A DNA stretch of 64,000 bases. Source: Chryseobacterium cheonjiense (GTDB lineage Bacteria; Bacteroidota; Bacteroidia; Flavobacteriales; Weeksellaceae). Location: the NCBI RefSeq assembly GCF_012927265.1, contig NZ_JABBGF010000003.1:248001-312000 (forward strand), given 5' to 3'. The notes beneath the pieces are model-generated. The model was not told the DNA's origin. It worked only from the letters and a program-made list of their open reading frames with translations, and ran no database searches. Within the stretch, counting starts at the first letter, position 1. Each line of letters begins with the position of its first letter. Of this stretch, positions 38,748 to 48,159 are shown piece by piece. A program made the translations under genes and the position numbers.

Positions 38748-39122
38748 TTATGCAGGTACGAGAAAAATTCCTTCACTAATTCTTTTGAATAATTTGATTG
38801 TGTTGGTCTGTTTTCCGAATTCTCTGTTCTCCCAGTAAATTTTGCCATCTTTATAATCACTGATTATAACGAACATCCCACCATTAATATTTAAGAAAGC
38901 AATAGCGGGAAAAGTAAGCTCTTCAATATCTTCCCAGTCATCCAGTCTAATGACCATTGATTCGATATCAAAATCATCTTGCAGTATATTGTAAAAACTA
39001 AAGAAATTATAATCGTCGAATGATAAGGTATAATCCTTTATTTTTCTTACTTTTTTATTATGCTTTATAAATTTCTTCAGCAAAAAATTAAAGGATAGTA
39101 GATAATCTTGTTTTTCAATCAT
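38748..39122 (-). CDS. C39-peptidase-like protein lacking catalytic residues
   Basis: The 124-residue protein resembles the peptidase C39 fold of bacteriocin exporters: a helical part (LLSFNFLLKKFIKHNKKVRK), a stretch matching the SLLSLSDAL-type helix (FSFYNILQDDFDIESMVIRL), then LTFPAIAFLNINGGMFVIIS, where active C39 enzymes have PAIxHxxxxHFVV, and DGKIYWENREFG. There is no cysteine at all, and the active-site His is replaced by Met. It is therefore not a protease. By analogy with C39-like domains that only bind leader peptides, it may present the precursor to an enzyme or exporter. It is the last gene of the lanthipeptide operon, 15 bases after the DUF6625 gene. The family call rests on motif resemblance only. 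Confidence 0.6.
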   Translation of the reverse strand: MIEKQDYLLSFNFLLKKFIKHNKKVRKIKDYTLSFDDYNFFSFYNILQDDFDIESMVIRLDDWEDIEELTFPAIAFLNINGGMFVIISDYKDGKIYWENREFGKQTNTIKLFKRISEGIFLVPA

Positions 39123-39137
39123 AAAAGCTGAATGTTT

Positions 39138-40373
39138 TTAATAGATATAGTATGCATTCTCTGTTACACAATTTTTTATGCTCTTTATATTTATTTTGTA
39201 AGGAACATTTTTTTCATTTTTATAATGAAAATCAATAGTACTGATATTCTTTCTACTTGTTCCTATCCATCGATTACCTTTAAGTTTATAGAGATAAAAT
39301 TGATTATAAAGAATACCATTTTCGTCTTCGTTAATAATAATTAATCTGTTTTTATCTTGGGGATAAAAAGTGAGATGTGTTTTACCAATTTTATAGGACT
39401 GCTCTTCAAGAAAATCAATATGCTGTTTTTGTGTGTAAGCCAGGAGCTTAGATTTCAACAGTAAAAATCTGTAGCGGGTATTGTTCATTCTTCTCTCTAG
39501 ATTTCTACCAAGTTTTTTTAGAGAATAAGAAATTTTGTTGGGCTTATAATAGATCCCCTTTGGCGAAATTAAAAAATTCCCTTTCGGTTCAAAAGTTTCT
39601 ATAAAGAAATTCTGATTGTCTTTAAGGTTGATAAGGTGAATCAACAGGTATTGTTTTTCTGTTACTGTATTATAAATATTACCTTGTACCCAATGATGAT
39701 CTACAGTGGAATAAACAAATTCCTGAACAATATTTTTGTGATAATATTTAATCTGATTTTGAAGTTCTAGTCTTCTAAGAACCAGAGTGAAGCTTTCAAT
39801 TTCGGTTTTAATCTCAGTAATATCTTTTAGATGAACAAGATTAAATTCAAAGTTGCATTCATCAAAACAAAAATGACGTGTATTTTGTAAAATGTGTGCA
39901 TAGTCCTTACTCTGTTTGAATAGGTTAATACACTGTTCATTATTTTTCAACAGTGTAAAGAATCCGGCGGGGTAGTTTTTGTGGGGAGAAATAACATCAT
40001 ATTTTTTCAGGAGTTTCTCCGTAATAAAATATCGGATATTCCCGAAAATAATATCGATGTCACAGTATCCCCAAAAATCATATCCCTGTAAATAATCCTG
40101 AAAAATCAGTCCATAAGCAGGTTTAAAATCACAAAGTTTGTAACCATCCAGAATATTGATGGATAAGTTCAGCTTTTCGCTTGCCAATTTACTAAATTCA
40201 GTAAGGCTGCTGATCTTGATAAAATGAACATTAGGGACATGAAAAGGGGCTTCCAGATTGGTGAATAAAAAAAAATCAACATCTGGATTGTATTTGCAGC
40301 TGAACAAAAAATGTTTGAAATATTCAGGCCAGCTTTTGCCAAAATAACAGTTTATTAATGCGATTCTGGTCAT
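39138..40373 (-). CDS. DUF6625-type putative glycosyltransferase
   Basis: The 411-residue soluble protein starts MTRIALINCYFGKSWPEYFK and has an FFLFTNL strand, then FWGYCDIDIIFG, which is a DXD-type motif as in GT-A glycosyltransferases that bind a nucleotide-sugar through a metal, and later SPHKNYPAGFFTLLKNN and HFCFDE. These fit the family NCBI calls DUF6625, as I recall it. It lies one base after the LanB stop, inside the lanthipeptide operon, so it may glycosylate the peptide or another cell product. The function is inferred. Confidence 0.65.
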   Translation of the reverse strand: MTRIALINCYFGKSWPEYFKHFLFSCKYNPDVDFFLFTNLEAPFHVPNVHFIKISSLTEFSKLASEKLNLSINILDGYKLCDFKPAYGLIFQDYLQGYDFWGYCDIDIIFGNIRYFITEKLLKKYDVISPHKNYPAGFFTLLKNNEQCINLFKQSKDYAHILQNTRHFCFDECNFEFNLVHLKDITEIKTEIESFTLVLRRLELQNQIKYYHKNIVQEFVYSTVDHHWVQGNIYNTVTEKQYLLIHLINLKDNQNFFIETFEPKGNFLISPKGIYYKPNKISYSLKKLGRNLERRMNNTRYRFLLLKSKLLAYTQKQHIDFLEEQSYKIGKTHLTFYPQDKNRLIIINEDENGILYNQFYLYKLKGNRWIGTSRKNISTIDFHYKNEKNVPYKINIKSIKNCVTENAYYIY

Positions 40374-40374
40374 C

Positions 40375-43300
40375 TTACACAGTTTTTTTAATATTCAGTA
40401 ATGAGTCATAGCTTTTATGCAAAAAATAATATAAAATAGACTCATGTATATTCGGTTTCGAGGCAAATATTCTGTTGATAAACATATGGATATAGCTTAC
40501 AACCAATGATTTTACCATTTGTGGAGATTGCAGTTCTTTAATTTCGGTAATGTAGCAGGCAGTTTTTTTAGATCTTATATCCAAAATTTTAGAAAACTCA
40601 TCAACACCTGCAAGAAGCTCCAAAGTTTGGTGTCTGTGCTCTCTATATTTATCCTTCAATGTCTGCTTAGAGCTATCATCCAACATGCTTCCGTATCCGT
40701 TGGAGAGTTTGTGCAGAATATCTCGTTTTTCTGTCATGTTATATCCAAAATCATCAAGAATTCTGTTTATTCCGGCAACAGCAGCTTTCCAGATTGAAGT
40801 TTCTGTGTATTCTGCTTCTTTCAGTAACTGGCATACACATTCACTATCCAAGTAGAAAATACTTTCCATCTGATCAATTGTAGTTTCACCATAACGCTCA
40901 ATTTCTCTATTATAGGTGTCCAGAACAATTTTATGGATAATCATTTCCCGGTTCAGATATTTGTCAAGTAACTGATAGATCTGGCTAGAAAGACTATGAT
41001 CTTGAGATGTCGTTAAAAACCTTATTCTGATATGCATATCCGGATCGCTGTAACGGATGAAGAACCATTTTTTTATAATTCTTTTTCGTACAAGTCCATT
41101 GGCGAATTTATACACGGTATCTTTAAGGATCTGATCAGAAACCTTTGTACTGCAATATATTTTATAGAAAAGCCATTCACTCCCCGGAACAAAATTTCTG
41201 GTGACTGTGTTTTTTACTGGGAAGGAAATAAGTTTTTCTCTCTTTTTGCTACTGAAATTATGCCATGGAATAAGGAACTCATTGCTGTGAAGATTTCCTT
41301 CTGCATCCTTTGTTACGGTGTTGTATTGGGATGAAAGATTTTCCAACACTCTTATCTTCTTTTCTTTTAATAAATGGTCAAACAGGATTTCCAGTGAAAG
41401 AGCATTGTTTATAAATATGGGAAGTTCCATATCTTTTTCTGTGAAAATACAAATTTCCGGAATGTTTTTTTCTTTTAAATACGTTTTGAATACCTCAATT
41501 GAAGCTTTTTTTCCATTGAAAATTTTATCATGATCCAGTAGCCAGGACGCTCTCGAAAGAATCACATTATGAATCATTATTCTCGGTAGAAAATCATAAT
41601 TGGCAAACATGCCCCAGTTCCAGTTATAAGAAGGAGTTGTATCCTGATACTGCAGATCACATAGAAAATGATACATCGGTACTTTATGCAGGTTATAATT
41701 GTGTGCAGATGAAAGACTTGGGATAATTTCTTTATTGTATTTTTTTGAACGAAGAATAATTCTGTCATTTTTTACAGAAATCATAATATCATTCAGATAG
41801 ATTGGCTCACCATCAGTGTTATGGCGATTTATAATAGGTATTTCATACTTCCTCAGATGAGGTCTGATCGTAATATTTCCAACCCTGGGCTGTGGATTGT
41901 GTACCACTTCAGCAATAATCTGCTCATCAAAGAAAGACTCTTCTTCTGACAGGGCATTTTTTACTGATTCTTCCAAATGACCATCCAAATGACAAAAGCG
42001 ACCCAAATAGGTAGAAGATGAAGGTCCGTCACTAAATTTATGGAAAATGACAGGCTTCCCTTTTTCATCCTCATAGATATGAACCAGTGAAGACATTGAA
42101 AAAGGAATATTTTTATTCTCCTCTAAAAAAGGACTAACTTCTTCTTGTGTAATTTGTATTAAATCTCGACTGTCTTTTAAAGCATTAATGAGCTTTTCCC
42201 CTAAAAACTGATTCCATTTCAAAGAGCCCTGAATAATATTAGTGGTGTTTTCTGACTTAAACTGAATTCCGTCTGAAAGGTTGGAACTTTCATTATCAGA
42301 ATGTAAAGGATAATTGATACCTGATAAAGGATCAAGGGCTAACAGTATCGGAATTTCCTGCTGATCATATCTTGCCGCAAATTCCTTTTTGAATTTATCC
42401 AGAGAGTCAATCGTATCTGCAGATCCAATATGAAAAACGGTTGAAAGTACTTTTTTAAAGTCTTTAAAAATATTTTTATCCAGTGTATTGGATTTTTTAC
42501 CTTTCAGCAAATCGGTTTGGAGGATATTTTTTTTGTGATTCTTAATTCCGACTGAAGTCAAAATTTCGGAAATCTGATCAACAGCAAGAAATGCATTATT
42601 GGTTTCATTAGCTTTTTGTACAATTTCAAATATGATAATCAGGCTGCGAATCAATTCTGCATCCTTTTTGTTTTCTTCGTTTTCCGGTATTTTCAGATCT
42701 TTCAAAAACTGATATATAAAATTCTGGAAATTCTTATCGGTAACCTTTGGAGAAAGTTCACTGATAAGAATTTTTGAATCTATCAATTCGTTGATATAGT
42801 CGAAACTATCTTCATAAGAAATGTCCTGATTAACCAATATTTCTATAATCTCTGAAAGCTTCAGGCCATCCTGACAGGCCTTTATGATTGAGTTCAGATA
42901 TTTATTTTTTTCAGTAGAGATAATTTCATATTTCAACCCGGAATTCTTGATAGAGGGTTCAATATAACGGTATTTATTTTTAGTGTTGTATACTGTATTA
43001 TTAGTAAAGAATTTGCAAACTTTTCTAACCTGCATATTCTCTTCCAGTTTTACCGTAATATCATGCAAAAGCTGCATATCCAGTCGGGCATATATTTTAT
43101 CCTGTTCTTTATCCAAAGCAATGTGAGTACTGTCGCTCCATTCGCCCATACTTACACCGGCATTGGTCCCGAATGGGATTGTTCTGAAGTGGGTTCTCAG
43201 CCAGTACTTCAATAGAGATTTTTTTATTTTATCAGCTTTTTCTTTAGACAGCTTTTTTTTGTCCCACAGAATGAGTTGTTCATATAAGTCCGGTGATGAT

Positions 43301-43425
43301 AAATAAATGGTATTACGAAAACTTTCTGTATTGATATCCTCTTCCCACTGATCGATATTTTTCTGTGGAAGGAGTGGTGTTCTCAGCAGGTAAAAGTTCA
43401 GTTTTTCTATATCGTTGTATTTCAT
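40375..43425 (-). CDS. Class I lanthipeptide dehydratase LanB
   Basis: The 1016-residue protein is full length for LanB (nisin NisB has 993). The N-terminal glutamylation domain spans about residues 1-700 (FRTIPFGTNAGVSMGEW, then HNPQPRVGNITIRPHLRKYEI and NDIMISVKNDRIILRS). The C-terminal elimination domain of the SpaB_C type begins near residue 760 (GSEWLFYKIYCSTK, then KKWFFIRYSDPDMHIRIRF). It uses glutamyl-tRNA to dehydrate Ser and Thr of the precursor core to Dha and Dhb. Its start overlaps the LanC stop by four bases (43422-43425). A single full-length LanB differs from the split dehydratases described for pinensin in Chitinophaga. Confidence 0.93.
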   Translation of the reverse strand: MKYNDIEKLNFYLLRTPLLPQKNIDQWEEDINTESFRNTIYLSSPDLYEQLILWDKKKLSKEKADKIKKSLLKYWLRTHFRTIPFGTNAGVSMGEWSDSTHIALDKEQDKIYARLDMQLLHDITVKLEENMQVRKVCKFFTNNTVYNTKNKYRYIEPSIKNSGLKYEIISTEKNKYLNSIIKACQDGLKLSEIIEILVNQDISYEDSFDYINELIDSKILISELSPKVTDKNFQNFIYQFLKDLKIPENEENKKDAELIRSLIIIFEIVQKANETNNAFLAVDQISEILTSVGIKNHKKNILQTDLLKGKKSNTLDKNIFKDFKKVLSTVFHIGSADTIDSLDKFKKEFAARYDQQEIPILLALDPLSGINYPLHSDNESSNLSDGIQFKSENTTNIIQGSLKWNQFLGEKLINALKDSRDLIQITQEEVSPFLEENKNIPFSMSSLVHIYEDEKGKPVIFHKFSDGPSSSTYLGRFCHLDGHLEESVKNALSEEESFFDEQIIAEVVHNPQPRVGNITIRPHLRKYEIPIINRHNTDGEPIYLNDIMISVKNDRIILRSKKYNKEIIPSLSSAHNYNLHKVPMYHFLCDLQYQDTTPSYNWNWGMFANYDFLPRIMIHNVILSRASWLLDHDKIFNGKKASIEVFKTYLKEKNIPEICIFTEKDMELPIFINNALSLEILFDHLLKEKKIRVLENLSSQYNTVTKDAEGNLHSNEFLIPWHNFSSKKREKLISFPVKNTVTRNFVPGSEWLFYKIYCSTKVSDQILKDTVYKFANGLVRKRIIKKWFFIRYSDPDMHIRIRFLTTSQDHSLSSQIYQLLDKYLNREMIIHKIVLDTYNREIERYGETTIDQMESIFYLDSECVCQLLKEAEYTETSIWKAAVAGINRILDDFGYNMTEKRDILHKLSNGYGSMLDDSSKQTLKDKYREHRHQTLELLAGVDEFSKILDIRSKKTACYITEIKELQSPQMVKSLVVSYIHMFINRIFASKPNIHESILYYFLHKSYDSLLNIKKTV

Positions 43426-44576
43426 CCTATATTCATTAAATAAATTTTATCCCAATCTTTTGCTTTTTCGGGATATTGATAGTCCAGCAGCACCATTCCC
43501 ACACCAGAAATGCCTTCTAAAAGACCAGTATGTTCTACCCACATGTCATTTTTAAGATCGTAAGGAAATTTAACTCCTTTTTCCAGTTGTTCCAGGGTAA
43601 GAGACATCCAGTAATCGTGCGCTGCTTTCAGCTCTTCATCTTGAAATATTCTATAGAACTTATTGAATATATGCGAAATTCCGGATGTTCCATGGCAAAT
43701 TCCTGTGTCTATACACTTATTTTTTTGACTATAAAATACGCCTGACCTATTCGCTTTTATTTTTGATGAATTCAAAATAATGGAATGACACATTGTTTTC
43801 AGCTCTTCGTCCTGCAAAACTGTATAAGCTTTCCAGATACTTATTGTAACTCCTAAATCACCATAGCACCAGGCAAGTCTTTCTGATAACTGTGTTTCTC
43901 CTGTGGCAATATTAAGTTTTGAAGGAAATATGAATTCTGAATCTTTATTTTGTTCGTAGAGCTCCTTTAAAAAGTTGACACTTCCATTAATCAGCTTCTT
44001 GCATGTTTCTTTCTCACAGCCTTTATGATAACATTCTACTAAAAAAGATATAATGGAGGGCTGCCCGTGGGCAAGGCCAAGGTCAATAATATTATCTTCT
44101 TTTACTATATGATCAATCCAGAAAAAGGATTCGTTTTTTTCATGTTTTAAATGGTCTATATAAGACACTATTTTTGCTACGGTATCAAATTTCTTAATTT
44201 CAAGAAAATAAATACCTAATCCGATCAGACCGGTAAATAAATCATATTCCTTTTTGTCTGCAGCAGCAGAAAGAAGTTCGAGGAAAAACTCAAAAGAATC
44301 TTCTTCTATGCTTTCAATATCCTCATCCGTAATAATATCAGCATTATGCAGAAGTCTCATAAAATAGATAATCGCTAAACTACCTGTACCAAAAGACGAA
44401 TATGATGCTTCTGATGCCATATCAATAAGATCCTCAATTTTTTCAATCTCAACATCATTGTTGTAAAATAATGAATAGTATCCGTTTCCCAGGCTGAATG
44501 TAATATTTTCACCTTTGTCTTCATTACATTTTTCTGAAATTTGGGTTAAAAAAAAGTCAATTTTATCTTTATACAT
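43422..44576 (-). CDS. Lanthionine synthetase LanC
   Basis: The 384-residue protein has the LanC double alpha-toroid pattern. Zinc ligands are present: Cys237 in AWCYGD and Cys294-His295 in GICHGTSG; GLAHGQPS gives the other conserved Gly-His-Gly. It closes lanthionine and methyllanthionine rings by adding Cys thiols to Dha/Dhb. Its start overlaps the LLM oxidoreductase stop by eight bases and its end overlaps lanB by four, so the three are translationally linked. Confidence 0.93.
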   Translation of the reverse strand: MYKDKIDFFLTQISEKCNEDKGENITFSLGNGYYSLFYNNDVEIEKIEDLIDMASEASYSSFGTGSLAIIYFMRLLHNADIITDEDIESIEEDSFEFFLELLSAAADKKEYDLFTGLIGLGIYFLEIKKFDTVAKIVSYIDHLKHEKNESFFWIDHIVKEDNIIDLGLAHGQPSIISFLVECYHKGCEKETCKKLINGSVNFLKELYEQNKDSEFIFPSKLNIATGETQLSERLAWCYGDLGVTISIWKAYTVLQDEELKTMCHSIILNSSKIKANRSGVFYSQKNKCIDTGICHGTSGISHIFNKFYRIFQDEELKAAHDYWMSLTLEQLEKGVKFPYDLKNDMWVEHTGLLEGISGVGMVLLDYQYPEKAKDWDKIYLMNIG

Positions 44577-45486
44577 ATTGGCTTAATATTTCGATAGCTG
44601 TTAAAGAATCTTTGTGTGATCTCGCAATGTTATTGAACATAAATTCATTATATCCGTAGAGCTCTTTAAATTCCAGCAGTTTTTCCTGAAAAAAACTTCC
44701 GTCTCCTACAAGGCTTATATTGCTTATATCATTGTTGGTACTTTTTTTTGCAACATTGATTGCCTTTTGTTTTGTTTTATGGCAGCATCCTGAAAAAGTA
44801 AGCACCATTGATGGTTCTTTTCCATATTTTGCTTTATATGCTGCTTTGAAATTTTGTAATTCTTCTTTGAGATATTCTTTGTTTGACTCTCCATGAAATA
44901 TGGATCGTGCAAAATTAAGATCATGCTCTAAAGCTACTTTTAATCCTGAGTGTGAAGATCCCATATACCATACATCAGGAATATTTCCTTTGTAGGGTGG
45001 GATGATCAAATCCTTTTTAAGAAATTCACTTTCATCTCTCAGAAAGCTTAAAGTAGATTCCAGTTTTGGAAGAAATGATGAAAAATAATTGTCTTTGTCG
45101 ACATCAACATTAAAATATTTAAGGTCATATTCACCTACGAGACCTTTAACGAAGCCAAGATCTAATCTTCTTGGATATAAACTTGAAAGGAGTTTATAAT
45201 TGTGAGCTACTCGGAATGGGCTTTGTAATGGTAAGATAACTCCTGCAATCCCTATTTTTATTTTCTCGGTTAATCCTAATAATATGGGAATTAACATTTC
45301 AGGAGTAGACCAAGCCATATCATGCGCTTTTGAAAAGTAGTTTTCGGTGACCCAGAATCGGGAAAAGCCAAGTTCATCAGCTCTTGAAGCATAGTCAATG
45401 ATATCGTATAATGATTTCTTAGAATTATTAAGCGAGTTTTCTCTAATGCCAAATTCTAAAAGGCCTATTTTTAATTTATTTGCCAT
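44569..45486 (-). CDS. LLM-class flavin-dependent oxidoreductase
   Basis: The protein of 305 residues begins at the ATG at 45486 (MANKLKIGLLEFGIRE); an open frame goes back to 45573 but would overlap the precursor gene and the hairpin. It is a luciferase-like TIM barrel of the MsnO8-like group: ADELGFSRFWVTENYF, KIGIAGVILPLQSPFRVAHNYKLLSSLYPRRLDLGFVKGL, and YMGSSHSGLKVALEHDL. It could bind FMN. Some LLM-type enzymes in actinobacterial lanthipeptide clusters (LanJ_C, as LxmJ) reduce Dha to D-Ala with F420H2. Whether this enzyme does that, with FMN, or oxidises the peptide is unknown. It is the first enzyme gene after the precursor. Confidence 0.85.
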   Translation of the reverse strand: MANKLKIGLLEFGIRENSLNNSKKSLYDIIDYASRADELGFSRFWVTENYFSKAHDMAWSTPEMLIPILLGLTEKIKIGIAGVILPLQSPFRVAHNYKLLSSLYPRRLDLGFVKGLVGEYDLKYFNVDVDKDNYFSSFLPKLESTLSFLRDESEFLKKDLIIPPYKGNIPDVWYMGSSHSGLKVALEHDLNFARSIFHGESNKEYLKEELQNFKAAYKAKYGKEPSMVLTFSGCCHKTKQKAINVAKKSTNNDISNISLVGDGSFFQEKLLEFKELYGYNEFMFNNIARSHKDSLTAIEILSQYV

Positions 45487-45504
45487 AGTAGAGCTGTTAA
45501 AAGC

Positions 45505-45526
45505 AGCTACTCCGAAAGGAGTAGCT
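45505..45526 (-). terminator. Hairpin between precursor and enzyme genes, probable attenuator
   Basis: Nine-bp perfect stem AGCTACTCC / GGAGTAGCT, extendable by a wobble pair and one further pair, with a four-base loop and only TTTT after it on the minus strand. It lies in the 68-base gap between the precursor stop and the oxidoreductase ATG. Partial terminators in this place are known in lantibiotic clusters and keep precursor mRNA in excess. Confidence 0.65.
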
Positions 45527-45554
45527 ACAATTTTTGTAAAATGTTTCTGATTTA

Positions 45555-45737
45555 CTAAGCAGGGCAAACGCAAAGATTAGTAGATCTGCTGCTTCCAGCC
45601 GTGCATGTCCAGTGTGAACAATCAACAACGGATGTTACTAGCTCTTTTCCTGCTTTTACAGATTTCATTTCTTCAGAATTCAATTGACTTAATTTTTCTT
45701 TTTTAAGTGTCAATTTTTTAGTTAATTTTTTGCTCAT
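45555..45737 (-). CDS. Class I lanthipeptide precursor
   Basis: The 60-residue peptide has the leader typical of Bacteroidota lanthipeptides: KKLTLKKEKLSQLNSEEM followed by KSVKAG, with likely cleavage after Gly30. The 30-residue core holds four cysteines (40, 45, 56, 58) and nine Ser/Thr (35, 36, 41, 44, 46, 49, 50, 52, 53), enough for up to four rings. The leader KLxLKKExLxxL pattern is the probable LanB/LanC recognition site. It is the only precursor seen in the cluster. A 67-base gap separates it from the upstream hydrolase gene and no -7 box is seen in that gap. Confidence 0.9.
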   Translation of the reverse strand: MSKKLTKKLTLKKEKLSQLNSEEMKSVKAGKELVTSVVDCSHWTCTAGSSRSTNLCVCPA

Positions 45738-45805
45738 AATAAAAAAAATTTAATTTGATACCTACTCGTTAGCTTTTCGGTTTCCGCTATATTGTTTACT
45801 GTAAT

Positions 45806-47446
45806 TTATTTTTTTATAAAATTCAATATTTGCTGATTGACAAAATCTGGCTTTTCTAGTGGGGCGTTATGGGTCGTATCTGGCACCACAAGCAATACTG
45901 AGTTTGGAATATTTTTGTGAATTAAGTTTGTGTCTTCGATTTTTACCAGATCATTACTTCCTGCAATTACCAAAACAGGATTTTCTATTTTTTTTAAATC
46001 ATTTGATTGTATATCCGGGTGATTAATCATTAAGTTTAATCGTCTTTTTTCTAAAAGGTCATCCGAATTTTCGTATCTTTTTTTTATGGAATTAATAAAT
46101 TTATCATCTACCCCTTTTGGATTGGTATTGGCGCCAATCACTACAAGTTTATTTATTATTTTCGGGTTTTTGATGCTAAATAATAAACCTGTTATTCCGC
46201 CATCACTCCAGCCCAGAATATTTATTTTTTGAAGTTTTAATTGATCTACGATATCAGACAAATCATCAGCTAATTTTTCATAACCATAATCAACGTTAGA
46301 AAAATCCTGACTTTTACCCTGATTTCTGGTATCTATGGTAATCACATGAAAATATTTTGAAAAAAAGGAAATCTGATGATAGAAATCCGAAATAATTCCA
46401 TTGTTGCCTTCTAATAAGATTAAAGGTTCACCGGTTCCGTATTCTTCGTAATAAATATTTGCATCAGTAAGCTTAATAAATTTACCCTCCGGATTTTTTC
46501 CATAAATAGTCTTTTTTGCATCTTCTCGTGCTTCGTAAAAAGTAACTAAATTTTTCTCTTCGTCTGTTAACTTAGAGTCATTGTTATTATCGCTCTTCTC
46601 GACAGTATCTATACCTTTATTATTGTAGCCGACATTAATATTTGAAAGAAAGGTTCCGTCACTTATATCCCACTGCGACTGACTTTGATGTCTGAACAAT
46701 AAATTTTTCGAAAGAGATTTTTTCGCTGAAATTCCAAAAACAAAGTCTGAATCTTTTAAAGGTTCATATTCTAACAGCTGCAAAGTGATTGCAATTTTAT
46801 CCAAATTATTGAAGACTAGTTTGTAGTTCGATAATTCTATATTTTGCCAGCCGGTTGTAGAAGTTTTAAAAATAATATTTTCATTTAAAAGTGACTGATT
46901 GGGCAAGCCATTTTTAACATCATAAATATTCAGTTTTAAAGTGATGCTTTCAAACCTTGAACTTGGCATGATATGAAAACTAAATGATTTTAACTTTGTT
47001 TTCTTATAAATATCAAAAATATTTCCCTGCTCAACTGTAAGCGTATTTTTATCAAACATTTTCGAGAAAGTTAAAATTGGGCGTGACTTTTGTCCGATAG
47101 TTTTCTCTTTTAATTTTTCTCCCTCCAGTACAACTTCTTGGATATTTCTAATCTTAAAATCCAGATAAACATCTGCATTCTGCAGCAATTCTGATATTGG
47201 TTTAGTATTTTCCGCGTAGCCTTCAGCCTTAAAAACAATTGATTTGTTTTGAAATTCTTTTGGGATTATCATCTTATAATCTCCGGATTTATTCGTAAAG
47301 GAGCCAATGTTGGTATCCTTAATACCAATATTGCAATAAGGCAAAATTTCATTTTCCATATTTTTCACTTTACCTTGAATTGTAATTTGAGCGTAAAGTA
47401 CAATATGTAACAACAAACATATTAGAAAAAACGACCTCTTTTTCAT
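45806..47446 (-). CDS. Carboxypeptidase-regulatory-like domain fused to an alpha/beta hydrolase
   Basis: The 546-residue protein starts at ATG 47446 with a signal peptide (MKKRSFFLICLLLHIVLYAQ). A carboxypeptidase-D regulatory-like beta domain follows (ITIQGKVKNMENEILPYCNIGIK, SFTNKSGDYKMIIP), then a beta-rich middle of about 200 residues, then an alpha/beta hydrolase from about residue 330 (YYEEYGTGEPLILLEGNNG, DTRNQGKSQD, nucleophile GWSDGG, ANTNPKG, acid AGSNDLV, His DTTHNAPLE). It would act in the periplasm or at the surface. It is 68 bases before the precursor gene in the same direction and may be part of the cluster as an immunity, processing or tailoring enzyme; this is inferred from position only. 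Confidence 0.8.
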   Translation of the reverse strand: MKKRSFFLICLLLHIVLYAQITIQGKVKNMENEILPYCNIGIKDTNIGSFTNKSGDYKMIIPKEFQNKSIVFKAEGYAENTKPISELLQNADVYLDFKIRNIQEVVLEGEKLKEKTIGQKSRPILTFSKMFDKNTLTVEQGNIFDIYKKTKLKSFSFHIMPSSRFESITLKLNIYDVKNGLPNQSLLNENIIFKTSTTGWQNIELSNYKLVFNNLDKIAITLQLLEYEPLKDSDFVFGISAKKSLSKNLLFRHQSQSQWDISDGTFLSNINVGYNNKGIDTVEKSDNNNDSKLTDEEKNLVTFYEAREDAKKTIYGKNPEGKFIKLTDANIYYEEYGTGEPLILLEGNNGIISDFYHQISFFSKYFHVITIDTRNQGKSQDFSNVDYGYEKLADDLSDIVDQLKLQKINILGWSDGGITGLLFSIKNPKIINKLVVIGANTNPKGVDDKFINSIKKRYENSDDLLEKRRLNLMINHPDIQSNDLKKIENPVLVIAGSNDLVKIEDTNLIHKNIPNSVLLVVPDTTHNAPLEKPDFVNQQILNFIKK

Positions 47447-48080: not shown

Positions 48081-48087
48081 TTAAATG

Positions 48088-48159
48088 TAGACTCACAGGG
48101 ATTCGAACCCCAGATGACTGAACCAAAATCAGTAGTGTTACCGCTACACCATGAGTCTA
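48088..48159 (-). tRNA. tRNA-Gln (anticodon TTG)
   Basis: A 72-base cloverleaf on the minus strand. The acceptor arm TAGACTC pairs with GAGTCTA; the D arm contains GGTGTAGCGGTAACAC; the anticodon stem is ACTGA/TCAGT with loop TTTTGGT, giving anticodon TTG for CAA/CAG; the T arm contains GGTTCGAATCC. The terminal CCA is not encoded. A strong terminator follows. The tRNA separates the lanthipeptide region from the housekeeping genes to the right. Confidence 0.95.

Follow-up and report, generated by a model that had tools for sequence, protein, structure and literature searches.

A conserved class I lanthipeptide cluster of Chryseobacterium with candidate reductase, glycosyltransferase and leader-binding genes

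What peptide is made by a lanthipeptide operon that also encodes a luciferase-like enzyme, a DUF6625 protein and a C39-like protein, and do these additional proteins act on that peptide? The question is raised by a locus of Chryseobacterium cheonjiense (contig NZ_JABBGF010000003.1, positions 248,001 to 312,000), a stretch of 64,000 nucleotides referred to here as the window. A preliminary description had reported six minus-strand genes (lanA, LLM, LanC, LanB, DUF6625 and C39-like), and coordinates and family matches bear out all six. Between the enzyme genes, the reported overlaps (8 and 4 bases) and gaps (1 and 15 bases) are exact. The gene set exceeds that description by a DUF805b RNA element, a hairpin (45505-45526) and a co-inherited gene (45806-47446). 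In order of transcription, the features are:

45806-47446, minus strand: gene for a secreted CarboxypepD_reg and alpha/beta-hydrolase protein, 546 aa (PF13715, 35.7 bits; PF00561, 74.8 bits)
45759-45790, minus strand: DUF805b RNA element, lanA leader (RF02914, 38.1 bits)
45555-45737, minus strand: lanA, 60-aa precursor
45505-45526, minus strand: stem-loop between lanA and the enzyme genes, read from the sequence
44569-45486, minus strand: LLM (luciferase-like) flavoenzyme, ATG start, 305 aa, candidate LanJC-like dehydroamino-acid reductase (PF00296, 68.9 bits)
43422-44576, minus strand: LanC cyclase, 384 aa (PF05147, LANC_like, 145.8 bits)
40375-43425, minus strand: full-length LanB with glutamylation and elimination domains, 1016 aa (PF04738, 378.8 bits; PF14028, 203 bits)
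39138-40373, minus strand: DUF6625 protein, 411 aa, candidate peptide glycosyltransferase (PF20330, 196.3 bits)
38748-39122, minus strand: stand-alone C39-like protein of 124 aa, candidate adaptor that binds leaders (PF03412, weak, 19.8 bits)

A TTG start for the LLM gene, in an open reading frame reaching 45573, was rejected; it overlaps lanA and is unsupported by the relatives.

Scanning GTDB genomes turned up 11 related loci (in C. candidae, C. culicis, C. viscerum and others). The order CarboxypepD_reg, DUF805b, lanA, hairpin, LLM, LanC, LanB, DUF6625, C39-like is identical in 11/11 of them, so the set is no chance arrangement. Among 199 genomes searched, LanB orthologues with 63-100% identity occur in the own genome and seven other Chryseobacterium genomes, after which identity drops to 33%. 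Ten of the relatives' loci share one genomic location; the window cluster and L042 lie elsewhere. As the location differs and the GC content of the window cluster (about 28-36%) is below that of its flanks (34-43%), the cassette has probably moved. About 640 bases upstream of the cluster is a tRNA-Gln gene (48087-48158); given the low GC of the cluster and its different place in ten relatives, this is a possible insertion site. In L042 (8489-9031) lanA is duplicated in tandem, the first copy being partly masked by N.

The precursor matches NF038153 (30.1 bits, cut-off 22). Its leader, LTLKKEKLSQL...VKAG (45648-45737), fits LxLxKx5L, the motif given in PMC7268733 for leaders of class I precursors from Bacteroidetes. 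The core, KELVTSVVDCSHWTCTAGSSRSTNLCVCPA (45558-45647), contains four Cys and nine Ser/Thr, and cleavage between leader and core would fall after AG. In an alignment of 13 precursors the four core Cys and Trp43 are invariant and eight core positions are Ser or Thr throughout. LanB unites Lant_dehydr_N (PF04738) and Lant_dehydr_C (PF14028) in one protein of 1016 residues, as the preliminary description had it, and is thus not of the split, pinensin type. It has equivalents of NisB R83, R87, D121, R784, R786, E823, R826, H961 and R966, of which the first three serve glutamylation and the others elimination and binding. LanC retains GLAHG (active His) as well as WCYG and CHG (zinc ligands), and its best NCBIfam match is LanM. 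Because these catalytic residues are kept, the cluster very likely makes a class I lanthipeptide. The LanB/LanC chemistry proposed earlier is well supported by them, by the leader motif and by the conserved core.

The lanA gene is flanked by two RNA features. Downstream, the hairpin AGCTACTCC-TTTC-GGAGTAGCT, followed by T4, is attenuator- or terminator-like; its stem is the same in the relatives and its loops vary. Upstream, the DUF805b element scores above its gathering score (38.1 vs 35.6 bits), and a near-identical sequence lies 5' of lanA in 11/11 relatives. Small peptides with AG/GG leaders follow 26/34 of the best-scoring DUF805b copies and 18/26 of the copies in two genomes, compared with 4% at random positions in the same loci. 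The pattern used is crude and passes some secreted proteins, so these automated counts are upper estimates; reading by eye gave 23/34 and 17/26. Chryseobacterium genomes hold about 1-21 copies each (L044-L079, L169-L197), mostly 5' of AG/GG-leader genes (about two thirds by eye). A literature search found no paper on DUF805b, and its association with AG/GG-leader peptides could aid in finding such genes.

The peptide is not confined to one genus. A class-level search with DUF6625 uncovered genome G381 (GC 0.59), which belongs to the same class and a different order. Its locus, L198, encodes homologues of LanC (39% identity to the window protein), LanB (34%), DUF6625 (37%, full length), the C39-like protein (33%) and the CarboxypepD_reg/hydrolase protein (31%), and beyond the last gene lie HlyD and PCAT in convergent orientation. 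The G381 core, TSIANCTGWTCTAGSTRSSNLCIC, agrees with that of the window at 16/24 positions, and three more differences are Ser/Thr swaps at dehydratable positions. In the place of the window hairpin, after lanA, stands a different strong hairpin, and 5' of the gene the DUF805b model matches weakly, its 19.9 bits falling short of the gathering score. No LLM gene lies between lanA and LanC in G381; a distant LLM (24% identity, EHH motif) is found 2.4 kb upstream. On these sequences the peptide is conserved across orders, as the near-identity of the cores indicates, and the adjacent LLM is not. Since a bacterium of another order has an almost identical peptide and the majority of the genes, the cluster looks like that of a real, undescribed product family. 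The conserved class I lanthipeptide cluster is real, and no description of its tailoring module was found in the literature searched. The preliminary description knew of no described Bacteroidota lanthipeptide that combines reduced residues with a sugar; in the papers searched, no characterised cluster with this gene set was found.

The CarboxypepD_reg gene adjoins lanA in 12/12 Chryseobacterium loci, and in G381 it lies downstream of the C39-like gene. Its alpha/beta-hydrolase domain is present in 7/12 Chryseobacterium loci and absent from 5/12 (L037-L041:7752-8672), the N-terminal half alone being constant. The protein is regarded as a member of the cluster, with candidate roles in the outer envelope, immunity or trimming.

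The LLM enzyme belongs to a subfamily tied to LanB. Of its matches in the 199 genomes the best 20 (E up to 6e-39) all adjoin LanB, in the window type with LanC between, when coordinates are compared by eye; the next match (3e-22) is not adjacent to LanB. A second LLM-LanB architecture accounts for 12 of these 20. Membership of the MsnO8 family (TIGR03558) was ruled out by score (127.1 bits, curated cut-off 166.95). The name LanJC has been proposed for LLMs that reduce dehydro residues in lanthipeptides (PMC7268733), and the window enzyme is, like them, a PF00296 protein encoded inside a lanthipeptide cluster. The cofE gene (TIGR01916) was not found in the own genome by a search that detected it in archaeal control genomes, which makes use of F420 unlikely; the enzyme would be flavin- rather than F420-dependent. 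LxmJ of the lexapeptide cluster is a LanJC of the F420-dependent kind.

By analogy, a LanJC-like reductase is the preferred assignment, with a chance slightly better than even. One point against it is that the usual EHH motif is lost: 12/12 window-type LLMs have ENY, the other ten EHH. The same loss bears on an alternative in which the LLM acts oxidatively, as a monooxygenase on Trp, a Cys sulfur or the backbone of the peptide, instead of reducing dehydro residues. The closest PDB relative is 4us5, the nearest solved relatives are named monooxygenases, and Trp43 and the core Cys are invariant, all as oxidation would have it. However, without the His-His motif of the other LanB-linked LLMs ordinary luciferase-type chemistry is disfavoured, and lanthipeptide LLMs that reduce Dha are known (PMC7268733), so that oxidation appears unlikely. 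Reduced residues in the product, as proposed in the preliminary description, are made plausible by the LanB-adjacent subfamily and by this precedent; against them stands G381, which has the same core and no adjacent LLM of that type. If LLM reduction takes place, it would be a lineage-specific step. Among the titles and abstracts returned by the literature search, none matched a LanJC in class I clusters.

The DUF6625 protein consists of an N-terminal DUF6625 domain and a C-terminal extension. The DXD-type assignment made earlier agrees with its DID motif, in which D105 and D107 are invariant among 18 diverse members, as in the DXD motif of GT-A glycosyltransferases. The GT-A fold itself is unproven, because an AlphaFold model from 11 close sequences reached a pLDDT of only 43.5 and neither the single sequence nor the 18-sequence profile matched PDB sequences. 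A literature search found no paper on DUF6625.

Gene neighbourhoods are more informative. Outside RiPP loci, DUF6625 genes sit next to GT2, GT4, flippase and sugar-nucleotide genes (L156, L160, L167), in EPS or O-antigen loci, and also on the Lactococcus plasmid pS74 and a Proteus plasmid; the plasmid-borne matches come from other genera only and cover at most 42% of the query. In 9/10 other DUF6625 loci of Chryseobacterium and relatives, a small peptide with an AG/GG leader is adjacent, usually together with VKOR proteins, and L217, L218 and L220 are further cases. L216 unites lanA, LanC, a split LanB and DUF6625. There (L216:11846-17763, genome G875 of the same order) a 405-aa DUF6625 protein directly follows LanB-C and is itself followed by a C39 transporter. 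The adjacency to glycosyltransferases in some places and to AG/GG-leader peptides in others supports glycosylation of the peptide, which on sequence evidence is the most economical reading and somewhat probable. The alternative is that DUF6625 glycosylates a cell-surface target, for example in self-protection, or transfers no sugar, the peptide being left unmodified by it. The many DUF6625 genes in polysaccharide loci and the unproven fold would suit this. In Bacteroidota, however, the gene recurs beside unrelated AG/GG-leader peptides and occurs in three kinds of LanB cluster (the window type, G381 and the split-LanB L216), as is expected of a peptide-modifying enzyme, and a non-peptide role is therefore considered rather improbable. 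These contexts lend indirect support to the sugar that, according to the preliminary description, the product may carry. The titles and abstracts returned by the literature search included no match for glycosylated class I lanthipeptides of Bacteroidota.

The three genes do not always travel together. G381 and L216 have DUF6625 with LanB and no LanB-linked LLM, and L117-L126 have LLM with LanB and no DUF6625; a fixed LLM, DUF6625 and LanB set was therefore rejected. In C. sp. CH25 (L037:14204-15436) the DUF6625 gene is frameshifted, by decay or sequencing error. In two unrelated genomes a DUF6734 gene lies next to a DUF6625 or LanB locus (L198:4397-5995, L153:10740-12083); the L198 protein carries a DSD motif and is possibly a further enzyme of glycosyltransferase-like type.

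The C39-like protein of the window scores 19.8 bits with PF03412, below the cut-off of 22, and its G381 homologue scores 39.7 bits, above it. Its structural model (pLDDT 74) finds PCAT peptidase domains as best Foldseek matches (E about 0.005-0.02, TM 0.45-0.56), and so similarity to C39 was found in both sequence, through the homologue, and fold. The catalytic residues of peptidase C39 were not found: Cys is absent from 12/12 Chryseobacterium copies and the catalytic His is replaced. Judged by its residues the protein is no peptidase, and the preliminary description was right to call it catalytically dead. Equivalence to the N-terminal domain of the VKOR proteins received no support from profile comparison. 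C39-like domains of transporters bind leaders, and by analogy with them the protein is probably a leader-binding adaptor. It could instead be a mere decayed remnant of a C39 transporter once encoded in the cluster, since the catalytic residues are gone and other LLM-LanB clusters have PCAT right after LanB. A remnant would hardly be expected to stay intact in 12/12 copies and be conserved across orders, and G381 carries both the C39-like protein and a complete PCAT; this origin is accordingly held to be improbable. No PCAT was found near the Chryseobacterium clusters in the loci read. The own genome encodes a complete PCAT with HlyD and AG/GG peptides, unlinked to the cluster (G000:C2).

The precursor, complete LanB and LanC, and the co-inheritance of DUF6625, the C39-like gene and the CarboxypepD_reg/hydrolase gene can be read directly from the genomes. 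The pathway would then run as follows. The hairpin after lanA would let the precursor exceed the enzymes in amount. LanB would glutamylate and dehydrate up to nine Ser/Thr, and LanC would use the four invariant Cys to form as many as four rings, some of them perhaps with i to i+4 spacing (S36-C40, S41-C45, S52-C56). The LLM may reduce one or more of the remaining dehydro residues in a LanJC-like, flavin- rather than F420-dependent reaction, and DUF6625 may glycosylate the peptide. The AG/GG leader would be bound by the dead C39-like protein, which would present the peptide to the glycosyltransferase or exporter. A C39 transporter (PCAT) whose gene lies at another place in the genome would then cut after AG and export the peptide.

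A class I lanthipeptide of a family that Chryseobacterium shares with one or more bacteria of a different order, with LanB/LanC rings, LLM reduction, a DUF6625 sugar and a C39-like adaptor, is moderately likely. Far more tentative, and perhaps doubtful, is a broader version: a glycosylated, partly reduced class I lanthipeptide whose DUF6625 and dead C39-like proteins form a portable module common to disulfide-type and other leader peptides, with precursors under common DUF805b elements. A silent or decayed cluster without any product is very improbable. The Chryseobacterium loci lack a linked exporter and DUF6625 is frameshifted in one relative (L037), but all reading frames and active sites of the window are kept and the core is conserved across orders.

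Few Bacteroidota lanthipeptides have been characterised despite the many LanB/LanC clusters in the phylum, and this cluster defines a family of products with a core conserved across two orders. It links the unstudied DUF6625 domain to peptide modification and allows a test of leader-peptide glycosylation. The recurrent dead C39-like protein offers the testable idea of a stand-alone leader reader.

Among known systems, the closest in taxonomy are ChmABC (Chryseobacterium sp. OV715, the same genus) and RuiABC (Runella limosa), class I lanthipeptides of Bacteroidota for which dehydration and rings were shown in E. coli with native tRNA-Glu/GluRS, A, B and C alone being tested (PMC9993889). They share LanA, LanB and LanC with the window. 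Seven dehydrations and three rings were reported for them, while the window core, judged from the genes alone, has four Cys and nine Ser/Thr; their text reports no LLM or DUF6625 product (PMC9993889). At the time of PMC7268733, no lanthipeptides other than pinensins had been isolated from this phylum. The window cluster resembles theirs in its class I pathway, LxLxKx5L leader and a LanC related to LanM cyclase domains. Pinensin clusters use split LanB, whereas the window LanB is full length, and the cores are unrelated by eye. The LanJC of birimositide, a luciferase-like reductase from an actinobacterial class II cluster (PMC7268733), is likewise a PF00296 enzyme encoded within a lanthipeptide cluster, a likeness of family and context; the window cluster differs in being class I and in lying in a genome without cofE.

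The second LLM-LanB architecture was read in ten loci of Chryseobacterium and relatives (L117-L126). It is widespread and comprises GG-leader precursors, two LanC, LLM, LanB and PCAT, often with an OMP_b-brl_3 protein upstream; PCAT follows LanB in nine loci, and in L117 a second LanC lies between. No characterised example was found in the literature searched. As in the window, LLM directly precedes LanB, open reading frames overlap and the precursors are class I. They differ from the window in that the LLM retains EHH, LanC is present twice, there are several GG-leader precursors and PCAT is linked to the cluster; no DUF6625 or C39-like gene was seen in them. In L146-L153 and L220, DUF6625 lies beside a leader peptide and C39-like domains, sometimes with DUF805b. 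These loci differ from the window in having VKOR and thioredoxin domains and no LanB or LanC. They encode Cys-rich AG/GG peptides, degenerate C39-like domains fused to VKOR and thioredoxin, and GT25-like genes; the VKOR and thioredoxin domains suggest disulfide peptides, and the loci probably represent another family of modified, disulfide-rich peptides.
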